DNA of 64,000 nucleotides from Bacteroidota bacterium. GTDB lineage: Bacteria; Bacteroidota; Bacteroidia; Flavobacteriales_E; Vicingaceae. The notes under the pieces are model-generated. The model was not told the DNA's origin, made no database searches, and was given only the letters and a program-made list of their open reading frames with translations. Shown in pieces: positions 2,156 through 19,693 of this stretch (positions within the stretch are counted from its first letter, which is position 1; the number at the start of each line of letters is the position of its first letter). Location of the stretch: positions 62,001-126,000 of the forward strand of contig JABFGJ010000007.1 in the NCBI GenBank assembly GCA_013112545.1, given 5' to 3'. The translations under genes were made by a program, and so were the position numbers.

Positions 2156-3139
2156 CTATTTTTCCGTTTCTATATTCCACTCAATTGTTTTTAATCTTTC
2201 AGCAATTCTTTTTATTGTATTCATTATTTCATTCTCTGATGGGAATTCTCCAAAAACTAATTCTTTAAAACTGGTTTCATAAGTGACTTTAATTTGATTC
2301 CAAGTCTTTTCGGTTTCTGAAAATAATATTGTGGTAGTTGGATGGTTCGATAGCCAACCATTTTTATTTTTAAAACTTATCACATCATCATTAGCAACCT
2401 TTAAAAGCATTGCATCAAACTTTTTTGAATTAAAAAATGTGTTTAGTTCAGCGTCTTTTAATAGCATATGAATATCATAAGTGTACCTAATCTTATTGCT
2501 CAAATCGGTTATTGGGTCTTCCGTTTGAGAAAAACGAACTAAACTCATCAACTTTTCACAAAATGTTCTTTCTGCACGTAATATCAAAACATCAAAAGGG
2601 CTCATTCCATATTCTTTAATCACATTTTGTTGGTTAGTCTTCAACATCATTTCATAAATGTAAGTCGATACTGTTCCTGTTGTATATGGCTCAAAATGCC
2701 CAAGCCAAGTAGATTCTACAATGATGGTGTCTCTTACTTGTCCAAAATCTCCATTAAAACGCTTTTCATAGCTGTGAGCAGTTTTACGTATCATTCCCAT
2801 TTTGTGAGTTATTCCGTCAATGGCTATTTCTGGAATAACTTTAGAAACACATTTTAAAACCTTTTTAATTTTAGATTTAAGCTGATTGTTTGTCTCTCCA
2901 TCTTTTCTTAAAACTACTAAATCAATATCTTCTGAAAATCGGTCGATTAGCTGGTTGCATTTTGATAATGCTGTACCTCCTTTAAAGACAGTTTCTTTCC
3001 CAATTTCATTGTTGAAGATAGCGTGCAAAGCCAATGTTACCCAATAATCTTTTTCGATATAGATTTCCGGAATTCCTTTTTGTTGAGAAGTTGCAGTTAT
3101 AGCATCTTGGAATAGTTCTTTGTTTTCGTGTAGCTTCAT
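2156..3139 (-). CDS. AbiEii/AbiGii-family nucleotidyltransferase toxin
   Basis: A 327-aa protein of the AbiEii family, the toxin half of AbiE systems. Known members are nucleotidyltransferase-fold proteins that block growth, some by adding nucleotides to tRNA acceptor ends. The fold's signature is visible near residues 52-75: KGGTALSK followed by RFSEDIDLVV, the G-G/S then D-x-D metal-binding pattern. An upstream IEKDYWVTLAL segment is also typical. The start codon overlaps the stop of the upstream antitoxin gene by 4 bp, so translation is probably coupled. The 188-bp gap to uvrB shows no gene. The protein is full length and the active-site aspartates are intact, so it looks functional. Its target cannot be told from sequence. 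Confidence 0.9.
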   Translation of the reverse strand: MKLHENKELFQDAITATSQQKGIPEIYIEKDYWVTLALHAIFNNEIGKETVFKGGTALSKCNQLIDRFSEDIDLVVLRKDGETNNQLKSKIKKVLKCVSKVIPEIAIDGITHKMGMIRKTAHSYEKRFNGDFGQVRDTIIVESTWLGHFEPYTTGTVSTYIYEMMLKTNQQNVIKEYGMSPFDVLILRAERTFCEKLMSLVRFSQTEDPITDLSNKIRYTYDIHMLLKDAELNTFFNSKKFDAMLLKVANDDVISFKNKNGWLSNHPTTTILFSETEKTWNQIKVTYETSFKELVFGEFPSENEIMNTIKRIAERLKTIEWNIETEK

Positions 3140-3861
3140 TTAATATTCCAATTGATTATTGTTGGTAGTGTTTTTTTATCAATTCCGCAATTATATTCAG
3201 AAAGTGGATTTAGACTCTTTTTTAATGTTTGCAGTTCTATGGAAAAATCTATTTTTTCTAACAAAGCACCCAAAAAAGCTCTTACTCTAGGTGGATATGA
3301 CAAAGCACATTCAATGAGCTGTTTAATCTCTTTTGAGTTTAAATTTTTTAGTCGGTTCGAAATGATTTTTATTCCTGATTTTTTATTTAAATCTGGTATT
3401 TTTTTAAAATCTTTGAGAGCATCCAAAATTTCTAACAGAGTATAATTTTTATCTGTCACATCTACATAACTTTTTACTGGATTTCCTTTAATATTTCCAA
3501 TTGCTACAGTTATTCGTTTATCTCTACTTGCAATTTTTATATTTCTTGGTACTTGAGTTGTTAAACCCATTCTGTTGTATAAAGAAATTCCAGTGATGTA
3601 TGCAATTCTTTTGTTGTTTTGGAACAAATAGGGTTTCAACAGCTCTTCCTCATTAGGTTGTAACTCTCCAAATATGGTTTGTTTAGGTTTGTAAAATACA
3701 CCTGTGGAAACTCTTTTGATGATTTCTTTCTCAATTAAACGCTCAATTGCCTTCGCTGCTGCACAATATTCGTTAGCCTCAATAGAAAGTTGTTGGTACT
3801 TAAATGTTGTACCTTCTTTTAACTTGTTAATCTGCGTTTCTAATTTTCGAGCTACTTTCAT
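3136..3861 (-). CDS. AbiEi-like antitoxin (DUF6088-type winged-helix protein)
   Basis: A protein of about 241 aa upstream of and overlapping the AbiEii-type toxin gene. Its N-terminal 60 residues look like a winged helix (TFKYQQLSIEANEYCAAAK, then ERLIEKEIIKRVSTGVFYKP), followed by an AbiEi-like effector region. AbiEi proteins neutralise the toxin and repress their own promoter. An in-frame ATG six codons upstream (3879) is rejected as the start because a TACTTTTG -7 element occupies 3869-3876, downstream of it; the ATG at 3861 is the first one inside the expected transcript, giving a nearly leaderless mRNA. The family assignment rests on the winged helix plus the partner gene, so the pair is clearer than the exact subfamily. 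Confidence 0.82.
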   Translation of the reverse strand: MKVARKLETQINKLKEGTTFKYQQLSIEANEYCAAAKAIERLIEKEIIKRVSTGVFYKPKQTIFGELQPNEEELLKPYLFQNNKRIAYITGISLYNRMGLTTQVPRNIKIASRDKRITVAIGNIKGNPVKSYVDVTDKNYTLLEILDALKDFKKIPDLNKKSGIKIISNRLKNLNSKEIKQLIECALSYPPRVRAFLGALLEKIDFSIELQTLKKSLNPLSEYNCGIDKKTLPTIINWNIK

Positions 3862-3868
3862 AGAAAAA

Positions 3869-3898
3869 CAAAAGTACAATTTTTTGATTATTTGTCAA
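3869..3898 (-). promoter_or_regulatory. Bacteroidota-type promoter of the AbiE pair
   Basis: On the minus strand a TTGACA -33 box (3893-3898) is followed, 19 bp after its TTG, by TACTTTTG (3869-3876), matching the Bacteroidota consensus TTG-N19-21-TAnnTTTG. Transcription would begin only a few bases before the ATG at 3861. The -33 box lies inside one arm of the inverted repeat at 3891-3924. Confidence 0.7.
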
Positions 3899-3924
3899 GT
3901 AAACGAAACATAATACTTGACAAA
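3891..3924. promoter_or_regulatory. 11-bp inverted repeat, candidate antitoxin operator
   Basis: TTTGTCAAGTA at 3891-3901 and its exact reverse complement TACTTGACAAA at 3914-3924 are separated by 12 bp. The promoter-proximal arm contains the -33 box, so a protein bound here would block transcription. AbiEi antitoxins are known to autorepress by binding inverted repeats at their promoter, which makes this the likely operator. Not followed by a T tract, so not a terminator. Confidence 0.6.
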
Positions 3925-4088
3925 GTAAAATACATTTTTGCCTTTTTTTATAATAAATTTGTTGGTTAAACTCTTTTGCCCAGATCTAAAGTATGGCTAC
4001 AGATTATAAATATCATTTTTTTTCAACAAGCTGATATTCAATTAGAAAATAATATTCCCCGATTTAGTAAATCACCACTTCATCAAAC

Positions 4089-4442
4089 TCATTTGTGGCC
4101 CAAATTTTCCTTCAATCGATTTATCAATTCGGCTGAATCTATTATTTCAGAAATACTTTCTGAGCTCAATATTGTTTCGAGTTTACCATCAGAATTGGAT
4201 AAAATAACAGGGTACTTAAAAGTGGTGTTAAATTGCTTTTCAAATTCATCAATGTGTAAGAAACTCATCTCCGTTTCAGATTCTTTTACAAAGTCTTTCC
4301 AATTTTTTCGTTCGCCAAAATTGCCATGTGTTAGGCTACACAAATCACAAGAGTAGGTGGAAGGGCTAATGATCTTATGTGCAAACCCTATAGTGGAATT
4401 TAAGAGGTCTGATTTGGCATTGTAAACAAAGATTAATTTCAT
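4089..4442 (-). CDS. Conserved hypothetical protein with CxxC motif
   Basis: A 117-aa soluble protein with no signal peptide. It contains a CDLC motif at about residues 32-35 followed by THGNFGERKNWKDFVKES, a pattern I associate with a small Bacteroidota family that databases sometimes label 'GTPase', although no P-loop or other GTPase motif is visible here. The gene lies 2 bp after the S37-like peptidase gene on the same strand, so the two are very probably co-transcribed. The CxxC pair could bind metal or be redox active; this is inference only. It is the last gene of the minus-strand operon; 3862-4088 holds only the AbiE promoter region. Confidence 0.75.
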   Translation of the reverse strand: MKLIFVYNAKSDLLNSTIGFAHKIISPSTYSCDLCSLTHGNFGERKNWKDFVKESETEMSFLHIDEFEKQFNTTFKYPVILSNSDGKLETILSSESISEIIDSAELINRLKENLGHK

Positions 4443-15538: not shown

Positions 15539-17221
15539 ATGGCTGACGATAAGAAGATTATTTTTTCCATGGTAAATGTCACTAAATCATTGCCTTCTGG
15601 GAAACCAATTTTAAAAAATATTTATTTGTCTTTTTTCTACGGTGCGAAAATCGGAATAATTGGACTAAATGGTTCAGGAAAATCGACTTTAATGAGAATT
15701 ATTGCTGGAGAAGAGCAATCTTATCAAGGTGATGTTGTCTTTTCACCTGGTTATACGGTGGGAATGTTATCGCAAGAACCAAAATTAGACGAAACAAAAA
15801 CGGTTAAAGAAATAGTAGAAGAAGGAGCAGCTGAAACAGTAGCTGTTTTAAAGGCTTATGAAGCTGTAAACGAAAAATTTGGCGACCCCGAAGTGTTAGA
15901 GAATCCAGATAAAATGGAGGCTTTAATGAAAGAGCAAGAAAAATTGCAAGAGCAAATCGACGCATTAGATGCTTGGGACTTAGACAACCGTTTGAATCGT
16001 GCAATGGACGCTTTAAGGTGCCCAGATCCGGAAGCATCAGTGGCCAATTTGTCTGGTGGAGAGAGAAGACGAGTTGCTTTGTGTCGCTTGCTATTGAAAG
16101 AACCAGATATTTTATTACTCGATGAGCCAACCAACCATTTAGATGCCGAATCAGTGTATTGGTTAGAACAGCATTTGCAGCAATATAAGGGTACTGTGAT
16201 AGCTGTAACTCACGATAGGTATTTCTTAGACAATGTAGCTGGCTGGATTTTAGAATTAGATCGAGGAGAGGGGATTCCTTATCAAGGCAATTACACTTCT
16301 TGGCTAGAACAAAAATCGAAAAGACTGAAACAAGAAGAAAAACAAGAAAGCAAACGAAGAAAGAATTTAGAAAAAGAGTTGGAGTGGTCTAGAATGTCAC
16401 CCAAAGCTAGAAGAACAAAATCGAAAGCTAGGTTGAGCAACTATGATAAATTGTTGAGCGAAGGAGGAAAAGAAGAATTACAAACCCTAGAAATACCAAT
16501 TCCAAGTGGGCCAAGATTAGGAAATGAAGTAATTGAAGCCATAGATGTAGCTAAAGGGTACGGCGATAGATTGCTTTATGAAGGATTAAACTTTAAATTA
16601 CCTCCGGCTGGCATTGTTGGTGTAATTGGACCAAACGGAGCTGGTAAAACAACATTGTTTAGAATGATAATGGGCGAAGAAACACCGGACAAAGGAGAGT
16701 TTAAGGTAGGTTCTACGGTTAAGATTGGCTATGTTGACCAAAGTCATAAGGAACTTGACCCACAGAAAACGGTTTACGATGTTGTTTCTGGTGGCACTGA
16801 ACAAATTGAAATTGGAGGTAAATTAATTAACTCTAGAGCATACTTATCTCGCTTTAACTTTGCAGGAGGAGATCAGAATAAAAAGGTTGGGGTTTTATCT
16901 GGTGGAGAAAGAAACCGTTTGCATTTGGCCATGACCTTGAAAACAGAAGCCAATGTTTTATTACTCGATGAGCCAACCAACGATATTGATGTGAATACTT
17001 TAAGAGCCTTAGAAGAAGGTATCGAAAATTTTGCAGGATGTGCCGTTGTAATTTCTCACGATAGATGGTTTTTAGATCGAATTTGTACCCATATTTTGGC
17101 CTTTGAAGGCGATTCTCAGGTGTATTTCTTTGAAGGTGATTTTTCGGAATATGAAGAAAATAGAAGAAAACGATTGGGGAATGAACCTAAGAAGTTTAAA
17201 TATAGAAAGCTGGTAAAGTAG
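15539..17221 (+). CDS. ettA: Energy-dependent translational throttle protein EttA (ABC-F)
   Basis: A 560-aa ABC-F ATPase that binds the ribosomal E site and gates the first elongation step according to the ATP/ADP ratio. Two ABC cassettes are complete: Walker A GLNGSGKST (about 42) and GPNGAGKTT (about 363), signatures LSGGERRR and LSGGERNR, and two DEPTN Walker B motifs. Between them lies the charged coiled coil (EQKSKRLKQEEKQESKRRKN) of the P-site tRNA-interaction motif. Length matches EttA (about 555 aa). There is no membrane domain. The 107-108-bp tandem array begins 15 bp after the stop. Confidence 0.95.
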   Translation: MADDKKIIFSMVNVTKSLPSGKPILKNIYLSFFYGAKIGIIGLNGSGKSTLMRIIAGEEQSYQGDVVFSPGYTVGMLSQEPKLDETKTVKEIVEEGAAETVAVLKAYEAVNEKFGDPEVLENPDKMEALMKEQEKLQEQIDALDAWDLDNRLNRAMDALRCPDPEASVANLSGGERRRVALCRLLLKEPDILLLDEPTNHLDAESVYWLEQHLQQYKGTVIAVTHDRYFLDNVAGWILELDRGEGIPYQGNYTSWLEQKSKRLKQEEKQESKRRKNLEKELEWSRMSPKARRTKSKARLSNYDKLLSEGGKEELQTLEIPIPSGPRLGNEVIEAIDVAKGYGDRLLYEGLNFKLPPAGIVGVIGPNGAGKTTLFRMIMGEETPDKGEFKVGSTVKIGYVDQSHKELDPQKTVYDVVSGGTEQIEIGGKLINSRAYLSRFNFAGGDQNKKVGVLSGGERNRLHLAMTLKTEANVLLLDEPTNDIDVNTLRALEEGIENFAGCAVVISHDRWFLDRICTHILAFEGDSQVYFFEGDFSEYEENRRKRLGNEPKKFKYRKLVK

Positions 17222-17235
17222 GAGGGCAATAAATT

Positions 17236-17910
17236 GAATCTGCGAGATTTGCGGGAGAATAGAAAGTTGATTCTGCAGATTACACAGATTAAGGCTGATA
17301 AGATTTAAATGAATGAAATTGTATTAAAGTAAAAAATCTGCGAATATCAGTAAGATTTGCGGGAGAATAGAAAGAAGTATCTGCTGATTACACAGATTAA
17401 GGCTGATAAGATTTAAATGAATGAAATTGTTTTGAAGTAAGTATCTGCGAATATCAGCGAGATTTGCGGGAGAAAAGAAATAAGTTTCTGCTGATTACAC
17501 AGATTAAGGCTGATAAGGTTTAAATGAATGAAATAATATTAAAGTAAATAATCTGCGAATATCAGCGAGATTTGCGGGAGAAAAGAAAGTTGATTCTGCA
17601 GATTACACAGATTAAGGCTGATAAGATTTAAATGAATGAAATAGTATTAAAGTAAAAAATCTGCGAATATCAGCGAGATTTGCGGGAGAAAAGAAATTTG
17701 ATTCTGCAGATTACACAGATTAAGGCTGATAAGATTTAAATGAATGAAATTGTTTTGAAGTAAGTATCTGCGAATATCAGCGAGATTTGCGGGAGAAAAG
17801 AAATTTGATTCTGCTGATTACACAGATTAAGGCTGATAAGATTTAAATGAATGAAATAATATTAAAGTAAATAATCTGCGAATATCAGTGAGATTTGTGG
17901 GAGAAAAGAA
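17236..17910. repeat. Tandem array, six 107-108-bp units with 3-unit higher-order period
   Basis: This 716-bp gap between ettA and the four-helix-bundle gene is almost entirely repeat. The landmark GCGGGAGAA recurs at 17251, 17359, 17466, 17574, 17682 and 17789, with a diverged copy (GTGGGAGAA) at 17897, giving spacings of 108, 107, 108, 108, 107 and 108. Units fall into three types by the stretch before CTGCGAATATCAG: types at units 1 and 4 (TATTAAAGTAAAAA), 2 and 5 (TTTTGAAGTAAGT), and 3 and 6 (ATATTAAAGTAAATA). Units 4-6 therefore look like a copy of units 1-3 (about 323 bp). Each unit contains GGCTGATA and downstream TATCAGC, and also AGATT and AATCT, which can pair into a long hairpin. 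No spacers and no ORF run through it. Confidence 0.92.
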
Positions 17911-17937
17911 AAGATAGAAATTGATTAAAAATAAGAT

Positions 17938-18285
17938 TTGGAACACAACGATTTAAAAGACAGAACGAAAAAATTTGCATTGAATGTTATTTCTTATTCA
18001 AAAAGTTTAGGAAATGATTTAGCTGATACTGAAATGGCAAAACAACTCCTCAGAAGTGCGATGTCAGTTGGGGCAAATACTAGATCGGCATTTAAAGGTA
18101 GAGGCCGAAATGAATTTAATGGAAAACTTGAAATGGTGATTGAATCGGCAGACGAATGTGGATATTATTTAGAATTGTTGGAAGCTCAATCTGGAACGAA
18201 TCTAGAATTATCTGACCAATTGAAGCAAGAATCGGAAGAGCTTACTTCCATATTTGGTTCAATAGTTAAAAAGAATATGAATTAA
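17938..18285 (+). CDS. Four-helix-bundle protein (23S rRNA intervening-sequence type)
   Basis: A 115-aa helical protein of the S23/IVP family (PF05635). The match rests on DLKDRTKKFALNVISYSKSL, then QLLRSAMSVGANTRSAFKGR and FNGKLEMVIESADECGYYLE, the standard order of the family's helices. The first codon is TTG at 17938; no ATG fits. Family members occur inside 23S rRNA insertions, next to diversity-generating retroelements, and as stand-alone genes in Bacteroidota intergenic regions; their biochemical role is largely unsettled. It starts immediately after the tandem array and is followed by a perfect hairpin at 18292-18319, as if array, gene and hairpin were one unit placed between ettA and hisS. 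Confidence 0.85.
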   Translation: MEHNDLKDRTKKFALNVISYSKSLGNDLADTEMAKQLLRSAMSVGANTRSAFKGRGRNEFNGKLEMVIESADECGYYLELLEAQSGTNLELSDQLKQESEELTSIFGSIVKKNMN

Positions 18286-18291
18286 AAGAAC

Positions 18292-18319
18292 AAAATGTGA
18301 TGCTAAAGAATCACATTTT
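18292..18319 (+). terminator. Hairpin between four-helix gene and hisS
   Basis: AAAATGTGAT (18292-18301) and ATCACATTTT (18310-18319) form a perfect 10-bp stem with an 8-nt loop, ending in TTTT. It lies 7 bp after the four-helix gene stop and 9 bp before the hisS ATG. It may end the upstream transcript; because it is so close to hisS it could also affect hisS translation. Confidence 0.55.
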
Positions 18320-18328
18320 ATATGGATT

Positions 18329-19693
18329 ATGAAAATAGGAATACCCAAAGGATTTCGAGATTTTTCGCCAGCAGTAATGGCAAAGCGAAATTTTATATTT
18401 GATACCATTAAGGAAAGCTTCAAGCGCTATGGTTATGAGCAAATAGAAACGCCCACCATGGAAAACCGTGAAACCTTAACTGGAAAATACGGGGAAGAGG
18501 GAGATCGTTTGATATTTAGTGTTTTAAATTCAGGGGATTATCTAAATAAAGCAGATGCTGATGCAATTCAATTAAAAGATTCAGTAAAAGTAATTTCAAG
18601 CATTTCAGAAAAAGCACTCCGTTACGACCTTACCGTTCCTTTTGCTCGTTATGTGGTGCAACATCAGAATGAAATCGTATTTCCTTTTAAGCGTTTCCAA
18701 ATTCAGCCGGTATGGCGAGCAGATCGACCACAACGAGGAAGATATCGTGAGTTTTATCAATGCGATGCCGATGTCATTGGTTCCGATTCTTTGATCAATG
18801 AAGTTGAGCTCATTCAAATATTTGATGAGGTATTAACTAAATTGGGATTGAGTGACTTTTCCATTAAAATTAACAATCGAAAAATTCTCAGTGGAATTGC
18901 CGAAGTAATCGGAAGACCAGAAAAAATCATTGACATTACCGTTGCCATTGATAAATTGGAAAAAATTGGAATTGAAAAAGTTAAGGAAGAATTAGCGACA
19001 AAAGGGCTTACTAAAAACGAAATTGATTTAATTCAGCCATTATTTGAGCTAAAGGGAGAAAAGAATCAAGTATTAAATCACTTAAAAGACTATTTAAAAG
19101 CATCTGAAATTGGATTAAGTGGCATTGAAGAACTGCAATACATCTTCGATTTATTGGATGTTGTTAGTTTAAATAAAGCTAAAGTTGAATTAGATGTAAC
19201 CTTGGCTAGAGGATTGAATTATTACACCGGAGCCATTTTCGAAGTGGTATCAAATGAAGTTCAAATGGGAAGCATTTGTGGCGGTGGAAGATACGCTGAT
19301 TTAACGGGAATCTTTGGATTAAAAGACATGTCGGGCGTTGGCATTTCATTTGGTGCCGATCGCATTTTTGATGTGATGGACGAATTGAATTTGTTTCCCA
19401 AACAAGTTATCGAGTCAAGCCAAGTTTTATTTATCAATTTTGGTGTAAAAGAATCGACATTTGTTTTGCCGATTTTACAAAAAATGAGAGCATTAGACAT
19501 TCGAGCAGAAATCTATCCAGATACTGCAAAAATGAAGAAGCAATTAAAATACGCCGATCAAAAACAAATTCCTTATGTGGTTTTAGTGGGCGAACAAGAA
19601 ATGGAATCAGGTGAATTAACACTAAAAAACATGGAAAGCGGAGATCAAATTAATGTTACTGTAGATCAGTTGATTAAAAAATTCTCTAAATAA
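18329..19693 (+). CDS. hisS: Histidyl-tRNA synthetase
   Basis: A 454-aa class II aminoacyl-tRNA synthetase charging tRNA-His. Class II motif 1 is in KESFKRYGYEQIETPTMENR. Motif 2 is RADRPQRGRYREFYQCDADV. The histidine-specific loops are ARGLNYYTGAIFEV (HisA) and SICGGGRYADLTG (HisB); GVGISFGADRIFDVMDEL is motif 3. The C-terminal anticodon-binding domain (about residues 360-454) is present. No start other than ATG 18329 fits. hutH follows after 24 bp, giving a histidine-themed pair. Confidence 0.97.
   Translation: MKIGIPKGFRDFSPAVMAKRNFIFDTIKESFKRYGYEQIETPTMENRETLTGKYGEEGDRLIFSVLNSGDYLNKADADAIQLKDSVKVISSISEKALRYDLTVPFARYVVQHQNEIVFPFKRFQIQPVWRADRPQRGRYREFYQCDADVIGSDSLINEVELIQIFDEVLTKLGLSDFSIKINNRKILSGIAEVIGRPEKIIDITVAIDKLEKIGIEKVKEELATKGLTKNEIDLIQPLFELKGEKNQVLNHLKDYLKASEIGLSGIEELQYIFDLLDVVSLNKAKVELDVTLARGLNYYTGAIFEVVSNEVQMGSICGGGRYADLTGIFGLKDMSGVGISFGADRIFDVMDELNLFPKQVIESSQVLFINFGVKESTFVLPILQKMRALDIRAEIYPDTAKMKKQLKYADQKQIPYVVLVGEQEMESGELTLKNMESGDQINVTVDQLIKKFSK

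Follow-up and report, generated by a model that had tools for sequence, protein, structure and literature searches.

A tandem array of short hairpin-forming units lies directly in front of an S23/IVP-type gene at the ettA-hisS junction of the window, by which we mean the whole stretch of 64,000 nucleotides that was analysed. The first-pass annotation had read array and gene as a possible RNA-protein or mobile pair, and the question raised by the locus is whether the repeat belongs with this gene or with another. We consider it probable that the array derives from a repeat-bounded unit whose gene encodes a GxxExxY protein, that it has no such gene left and was amplified in tandem, and that the S23 gene is a separate unit which shares the same hot spot.

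Structure of the array and its hairpins

The features of the junction are collected in Table 1.

Table 1. Features at the ettA-hisS junction (positions are those of the window).
Feature	Position	Strand	Basis
ettA (ABC-F ATPase), upstream neighbour	15539..17221	+	ORF; name carried over from the first-pass annotation
Tandem array, gene-less, partial unit plus six ~108-bp units	17232..17911	+	Tandem Repeats Finder, R1 covariance model
One hairpin (conserved core) of the array	17442..17515	+	ATYWGYG-word arm, ~15-nt loop, inverted CRCAGATT-type arm
S23/IVP-type four-helix-bundle gene, 115 aa, TTG start	17938..18285	+	PF05635, TIGR02436, PDB 2rld
Perfect 10-bp hairpin 3' of the S23 gene, arms 18292-18301 / 18310-18319	18292..18319	+	Read directly
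hisS, downstream neighbour	18329..19693	+	ORF

Tandem Repeats Finder confirmed the six units of 107-108 bp that had been described between ettA and the four-helix-bundle gene, placing the array at 17238-17911 (6.3 copies of 108 bp) with a top-scoring period of 323 bp, equal to three units. Counted from GATTACACAGATT, the units start at 17278, 17386, 17493, 17601, 17709 and 17816 and measure 108, 107, 108, 108 and 107 bp, the sixth being cut by the array end. A partial unit opens the array at about 17232, 10 bp past the ettA stop codon, and 26 bp separate the array end from the S23 start codon. The proposed A-B-C-A-B-C order stood for units 2 and 5 (3 of 107 positions differ) and units 3 and 6 (3 of 96), which are near-copies, but not for units 1 and 4, which differ at 10 of 108 positions. 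Since unit 4 is closer to units 3 (4 of 108) and 6 (4 of 96) than to unit 1, a three-unit block appears to have taken part in the growth of the array, with later homogenisation or exchange. One other array of the source genome likewise scores best at three units (342 bp).

What is conserved in the array is a hairpin that spans the border of two units, to which the first contributes its end and the following one its start; the sequence between hairpins is specific to each array. In the hairpin, an arm of about 31 nt, whose ATYWGYG words mostly follow at 9 or 10 bp, is joined by a loop to the same arm in inverted form; across all matches to R1, a covariance model of the hairpin, word spacing was 9 bp in 50 cases, 10 bp in 37 and 19 bp in 14. 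Within the window R1 matched at 17232-17300, 17335-17408, 17442-17515, 17550-17623, 17658-17731 and 17765-17838 with scores of 51.6-82.3 bits, partly by construction as three of the six were R1 training sequences. What may be a remnant of the start and stop codons of GxxExxY was seen, by eye only, in a unit spacer of the window and is not claimed.

The foldability ascribed to each unit was borne out, both strands of one window unit giving z scores of -2.1 and -3.3 against shuffles. Over six folded strands, one of which (from the L055 pair) was cut in a shifted register, hairpins folded better than shuffles on either strand with z between -1.6 and -3.6. In the hairpin alignment 89% of cells pair. 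The covariation that the first-pass annotation had named as a check was present in the score, 0.147 exceeding all 500 shuffles (0.129), but pairs with a double change were no commoner than in shuffles (6 versus 8.1) and cells with such a change only slightly more numerous (39 versus 33.4). The inverted design is kept; a conserved RNA does not follow from the covariation. A covariation-proven RNA structure was rejected because the double changes do not stand out and because this alignment (A4), which holds both strands of palindromes, was fitted to the R1 model. A known RNA family was rejected as well, since Rfam 15 gave no match at E<=1 for 16800-18500. With respect to transcription signals, a consensus scan found no terminator-like site in the array, both detected sites lying within the S23 gene, and terminators were rejected as the identity of the array. 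Promoter-like sites in 17150-18400 numbered 3 against 5.8 in shuffles, i.e. fewer, by consensus scan.

The gene behind the array is of the IVP type as annotated. Its open reading frame matches PF05635 (E 1.7e-13, 51.1 bits versus a curated cut-off of 33.8), TIGR02436 (E 1.2e-17, 64.1 bits versus a cut-off of 24) and PDB entry 2rld (E 1.3e-15), and it sits between two protein genes, not inside 23S rRNA as an intervening sequence. The perfect hairpin reported behind it was present, and is not among the sites detected by the terminator scan.

The gene that accompanies the repeat

The hairpin core of the window recurs in three further arrays of the source genome, and besides these as two single copies (contig positions C2:303835 and C5:37804). 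The arrays lie at C6:114191-115941 (114-bp period), at C2:298304-299015 (104-bp period) and at C6:167.7 kb, where one of two units matches R1; spacers and periods vary among arrays, and the hairpin alone is common to them. A GxxExxY gene (PF13366, TIGR04256) lies inside an array on C6 with hairpins on either side. R1 was searched with Infernal's stricter filters against 46 genomes of the order, and after matches no more than 5 kb apart had been pooled, the hairpin was found at 26 distinct places in 10 genomes. A search with the 13-mer GATTACACAGATT at two mismatches was no better overall than its control (67 and 78 matches versus 68 and 72), and led to two more arrays.

Two places in other genomes were recorded separately. 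In genome G015 (83% complete, and lacking a PF13366 match) the hairpin core was seen in another gene-less array, at positions 2882-4246 of locus L147 (contig C110), which numbers about 10-12 units and has a 119-bp period and a higher-order period of 461 bp. In G039 a lone hairpin of the window family follows the hisS stop codon directly (L260 1598-1672, contig C126), on the opposite side of hisS from the window array.

The 26 places were scanned for both genes up to 1.5 kb on each side with profiles built in this analysis, some flanks being cut by contig ends; expected numbers are Poisson counts from rounded genome sizes. A GxxExxY gene was found at four places (G000:C6, in the source genome, G010:C139, G013:C18 and G043:C3, the last in two frames) where 0.10 were expected (P 4.6e-6). 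In contrast, an S23 gene was found at one place, the window itself, against 0.29 expected (P 0.25), and the pairing of repeat with IVP protein, together with the idea that copies lie beside PF05635 genes more often than chance, was not upheld. The other 22 places have no GxxExxY gene within 1.5 kb; most copies are thus gene-less, which counts against deriving them from GxxExxY units. The window array is among them, and the source genome has three open GxxExxY genes elsewhere.

The words of the repeat gave the same contrast. Around 40 GxxExxY loci of the order, which account for 42 of the 57 matches listed (the 15 omitted include fragments, duplicates and contig ends), repeat words occurred at 3.24/kb within 350 bp versus 0.22/kb at 1-2.5 kb, about 15-fold, with three or more words at 13 of the 40. 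In a wide set of 77 loci, drawn from the best 80 of at least 571 relatives after three near contig ends had been dropped and possibly including some from the window's own order, the densities were 4.26 and 0.52/kb. By contrast, the words were not enriched at 67 S23 genes of the order (0.23/kb near, 0.24/kb far), mostly the best-scoring among the matches listed and not a random sample; none had three or more. Of 30 phylum loci for the window's S23 protein one was the window's own, and none of the other 29 had two or more words in its flanks. A repeat-S23 pair was rejected on these grounds and on the absence of S23 from 25 of the 26 hairpin places. PF05635 is found in all 46 genomes of the order and PF13366 in 20.

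The GxxExxY protein (about 125 aa) is predicted from fold and residues to be a PD-(D/E)XK nuclease of the Cas4/RecB type. A structure model built with 41 sequences had a mean pLDDT of 94.9, and its best PDB match, the only one at E<=0.001, was 4ic1 (SSO0001; E 6e-4, TM 0.59, 29% identity), a Cas4 protein; weaker structural matches included lambda-type exonucleases. By sequence no PDB chain scored better than E 0.56, and the link to Cas4 by sequence profiles was weak, below cut-offs. Five residues (E27, D67, E77, K79 and Y95) do not vary at all and Q91 hardly does, which is the pattern of an active PD-(D/E)XK nuclease with a QxxxY motif.

Inverted framing and exchanged sites

Framing was scored by local alignment of the 220 bp upstream of a gene with the reverse complement of the 220 bp downstream, with a threshold of at least 28. 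GxxExxY genes were framed by inverted repeats at 29 of 39 loci of the order (one of the 40 places, containing Ns, was dropped) versus 7 of 540 positions drawn at random from these loci, and at 60 of 77 wide loci from several phyla versus 1 of 622. S23 genes were framed at 42 of 67 loci of the order versus 4 of 877, and at 24 of 28 phylum relatives of the window's S23 protein, one further locus near a contig end having been dropped, versus 0 of 157. Control ORFs in the order loci, chosen mechanically as M plus 150-600 codons, reached the threshold in 4 of 154 cases and never reached 34. These controls (random positions and other ORFs) replaced a mismatched-pair control, whose background was inflated because unrelated units share word types. 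The remaining 10 of 39 and 17 of 77 GxxExxY loci fall below the threshold, which counts against a GxxExxY unit. Going by record titles, framed wide loci come from Bacteroidota, Cyanobacteria, Planctomycetota, Verrucomicrobia, SAR324, Desulfobacteraceae, Acidobacteria and Ignavibacteria. Both loci from Neomarinimicrobiota (26 and 22) and the one from Nitrospiria (27) stay under the threshold, though words are visible. Three plasmid loci scored 53, 36 and 20.

The two families differ in the period of their arms, which was 7 or 14 bp for S23 (31 of 42 in the order, 21 of 24 in the phylum) and for GxxExxY 8-10 bp in 20 of 29 (order) and 8-11 bp in 50 of 58 (wide). GxxExxY end words follow a CRCA-type consensus, e.g. 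CGCAGATT, CGCAAAGA and CGCAGAGG, and also CRCAGAT(T) and CRCARAG. Two or more CRCARA words per side were present at 54 of 77 wide loci and 15 of 40 of the order, compared with 0 of 67 and 0 of 29 S23 loci, and the facing orientation of CRCARA words on the two sides of the gene outnumbered its reverse (343 versus 150 wide, 118 versus 36 in the order). End words differ between units (CRCAGAT, CGCAAAG, CGCAGAG), which is unusual for a fixed-end transposase and is a further point against a GxxExxY unit. Each family tends to sit between its own short-period inverted repeats, as mobile elements do. The 8-mers GTCCGTGA, GGACCACA and ATTCCGCA were each seen near six S23 genes of the order and were absent from distal stretches; the genes that share them possibly form a subfamily distinguished by its end sequence.

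The earlier suggestion of an unrecognised mobile unit with IVP genes thus gained support in another form, for S23 genes generally, which tend to lie between inverted 7-bp words and are present or absent at conserved sites in congeners, but not for the gene of the window. Its flanks (L208) have no inverted repeat, the score of 19 being background (control mean 20); the absent 7-bp ends fit decay without proving it. Relatives of the window's S23 protein were found in 16 plasmid records. On a Planktothrix agardhii plasmid (L368 1850-2700) an S23 gene with AATCGTA/AATCCCC heptamer ends is flanked by DISARM drmD and an MmeI-like gene, so that S23 units also occur beside defence genes on plasmids.

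Comparison of congeners revealed sites with and without units. A GxxExxY unit of about 587 bp is present in G044 (contig C42), while matches to the flanking genes lie 13 bp apart in G045 and 45 bp apart in G042; G043 has at this site a gene-less hairpin (63 bp) with the same end word, and no match for the site was found in G041. Between hutI-hutG and gft, the source genome has a gene-less array, and in G013 the same place holds a GxxExxY gene preceded by repeat words and followed by hairpins. At L109 of the source genome, 3.6 tandem copies of 255 bp, each made of a palindrome and a truncated GxxExxY start, end at an intact gene; this is plausibly an intermediate between unit and array.

For S23, two units lie within one 8-kb stretch of G008. 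The first is also present in G007; in G010 its place is taken by 81 bp that contain a palindrome built on a different heptamer, and in G011 and G012 by an unrelated ORF (about 200 aa) common to both. G010 and G012 do have the second unit, which is replaced in G007 by a different ORF of about 127 aa (L389, contig C56) and in G011 by 288 bp free of a long ORF. The S23 and GxxExxY profiles found nothing in these replacements, and no match spanning the sites was found in G009. The two places are thus exchange sites, whichever way each of them changed. The ORF of G011 and G012 (L387 529-1174, contig C77, and L388 269-916, contig C22) is membrane-bound by its look. No target-site duplication was legible at the compared sites, the genomes being too diverged to tell, and presence or absence was seen at the level of congeners, with no strain-level insertion or excision.

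The ettA-hisS junction itself was compared across relatives. hisS was found in 44 of 46 genomes; among the best 30 of these 44 loci, ettA lies upstream in 13, including the source genome. The gap, measured between the matched parts of the two genes (last codon of ettA, first codon of hisS), is 16-181 bp in the 12 relatives with none of the repeat's words, versus 1110 bp with 18 words in the source genome. Clear 7-bp periodicity was seen in four of the 12 (G038, G013, G040 and G034; lag-7 identity 0.51-0.55), and the AT-rich gap of G029 (0.61) is a possible fifth case; these gaps resemble the ends of S23 units with the gene missing. The junction is thus a site of repeated landing or decay, and the simplest account of the S23 gene and GxxExxY-type array of the window is that two units share it. 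Strong hairpins without 7-bp periodicity were seen at this junction in G030 and G031 (L250 and L251; MFE -46 and -36 kcal/mol), a third palindrome type.

Origin of the array and related systems

The following scheme is proposed for the array. A full unit would consist of a GxxExxY gene between inverted repeats of 8-11-bp words (CRCAGATT, CRCARAG) and would insert into intergenic DNA, the nuclease acting at hairpins formed by the unit ends. The gene would be lost more readily than the ends, which would persist together as a hairpin, and hairpins would stay single or multiply in tandem via unequal exchange or slippage. In the window, unit ends would have entered the ettA-hisS junction, where several relatives have other short palindromes, and would have been amplified to six units, the three-unit block included. 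The adjoining S23 gene would belong to another type of repeat-bounded unit, independent of the first, from which the ends were lost but not the gene, and the three open GxxExxY genes of the source genome could act on gene-less copies in trans. That the array derives from a GxxExxY unit is the part we hold with good confidence. Observed directly are the association of repeat and gene, the inverted framing, the presence or absence of units in congeners, gene-less hairpins where relatives have the gene, and the array with truncated GxxExxY genes in its units. Movement of units, cutting or binding of hairpins by GxxExxY and service in trans are what we infer, and the enzymatic scheme is offered as tentative. 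The 26 bp between array and S23 gene stay a coincidence under derivation from a GxxExxY unit, which counts against it.

The same proximity (17911 to 17938) speaks for a functional pair, in which a structured repeat RNA is bound by the IVP-type protein. Such a pair also has a parallel in the S23-family ORF within a structured rRNA insertion (PMC4990558) and in the resemblance of PF05635 proteins to Avd of retroelements (PMC10053308), and the hairpin covariation score above all 500 shuffles fits it. It is nevertheless very improbable, given that S23 genes elsewhere lack the window repeat (0 of 67 in the order at three or more words, 0 of 29 in the phylum at two or more), that 25 of 26 hairpin places are without S23 within 1.5 kb, and that neither the double changes (cells 39 versus 33.4, pairs 6 versus 8.1) nor Rfam speak for a conserved RNA. 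A service to the host as DNA or RNA, e.g. as mRNA stabilisers, processing sites or nucleoid or gyrase sites, with the GxxExxY link merely historical, would suit intergenic hairpins that fold well on all six strands (z -1.6 to -3.6) and whose arms are conserved while spacers vary between arrays. Yet the 12 relatives with the same gene order do without the array in their gaps of 16-181 bp, unit number, period and spacer vary by array, and no terminator-like site lies in the array; we consider this reading improbable.

Somewhat more weight, though still unlikely in our judgement, is given to GxxExxY and S23 units being immobile, that is, old resident genes at which local repeats (through slippage or hairpin-templated copying) promote gene loss that mimics presence and absence. 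Consistent with this, no target-site duplication was legible and no strain-level movement was seen, a search for relatives of one GxxExxY query found them, at its sensitivity, in 8 of 72,556 plasmid records and in none of 50,697 phage records, the S23 heptamer varies from unit to unit, and where one S23 unit lies, a different gene is common to two congeners, so that change in either direction may have occurred there. Against it are the trace-free sites in G045 (13 bp) and, at ettA-hisS, in G036 and G045 (16-20 bp), the different contents of one junction in different genomes, and a CRCA-type consensus that GxxExxY words hold across several phyla.

On a broader view, there may be two large classes of minimal mobile elements that have gone unrecognised, one with GxxExxY as its protein and 8-11-bp words in its bounding inverted arrays, the other with S23/IVP and 7-bp words. 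The first class would be driven by a stand-alone Cas4/RecB-like PD-(D/E)XK nuclease recognising word arrays and not fixed ends, the 23S rRNA intervening sequence would be the special case in which an rRNA helix received an S23 unit, whose inverted ends now form the stem cut by RNase III, and arrays of the window type would be gene-less relatives served in trans. We regard this generalisation as speculative. The role of intergenic GxxExxY and "four helix bundle" genes is not explained in the literature consulted, and both recur widely; tying each family to its own repeats and to exchanged sites gives one testable picture of intergenic repeat DNA and suggests concretely how rRNA intervening sequences may have arisen. 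To our knowledge GxxExxY is not a DDE or other known transposase, and a small PD-(D/E)XK nuclease as sole protein is not among the known types of transposase chemistry. If true, a mobile unit with only such a nuclease would add a new transposition chemistry.

In the open-access literature, subscription journals and preprints being outside this scope, neither repeat-gene pairing was described, GxxExxY and four helix bundle protein never occurred together in one paper, and none of six 15-17-base strings of the repeats was found; mentions of GxxExxY or PF13366, as far as the excerpts extend, do not concern repeats. An inverted-repeat-bounded gene with gene-less palindromic derivatives is a kind already known. 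Like insertion sequences and MITEs, the units enclose a single gene in inverted repeats, have gene-less derivatives whose ends are similar, and correspond to empty sites in relatives; unlike them, the gene is GxxExxY and end sequences vary by unit. Terminal inverted repeats round one gene are a property of most GxxExxY units elsewhere (29/39, 60/77) and not of the window array.

With 23S rRNA intervening sequences there is the likeness of an S23-family gene between complementary ends (PMC4990558) to S23 genes elsewhere with inverted ends, but the window gene lacks such ends, lies between ettA and hisS, and adjoins an array of another repeat type. In that paper (2016) the ends form a 28-bp stem of terminal inverted repeats, the mobility of the element and its repeats are discussed, and function and origin of the intervening sequences are called unclear more than 25 years after their identification; no link from the rRNA element to genome-wide heptamer ends was seen there. 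Intergenic direct repeats of the TAACTGA heptamer with a 7-bp period have been described from Bacteroidetes, Cyanobacteria and Beggiatoaceae (PMC4679880). They resemble S23 ends in their 7-bp period, unlike the window array, whose words are 9-10 bp apart; a term search of that text gave no mention of S23, four helix or GxxExxY. CRISPR arrays are alike in their regularly spaced hairpin-forming repeats and in the linked nuclease, which resembles Cas4. In the window, however, the spacers copy each other and the neighbours are ettA, S23 and hisS, and a CRISPR-like array was rejected because its spacers are repeated and not unique.

REP/REPIN elements carry a GTAG or CGTC tag at one palindrome end and have a Y1 (PF01797) RAYT transposase as partner. 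The family described here is like them in its small intergenic hairpins, single or tandem at several places in the genome, in a gene flanked by the same palindromes, and in gene-less copies that outnumber genes (22/26 places here). It is unlike them in that the linked protein is a PD-(D/E)XK nuclease and not a Y1 HUH transposase, that the tag is absent from four representative units, and that the ends are 8-11-bp words. The one PF01797 gene of the source genome (C2:31429) is away from all R1 places, and REP/RAYT membership was rejected because this gene lies by its own 261-bp array and because the tag is missing. That array (L386 1943-3337, on contig C2 of the source genome) consists of 5.4 tandem copies of 261 bp with CGACCCCTTCGGGGTCG-type hairpins beside the PF01797 gene at C2:31429-31773, a REP-like array with another enzyme and other hairpins in the same genome as the window.
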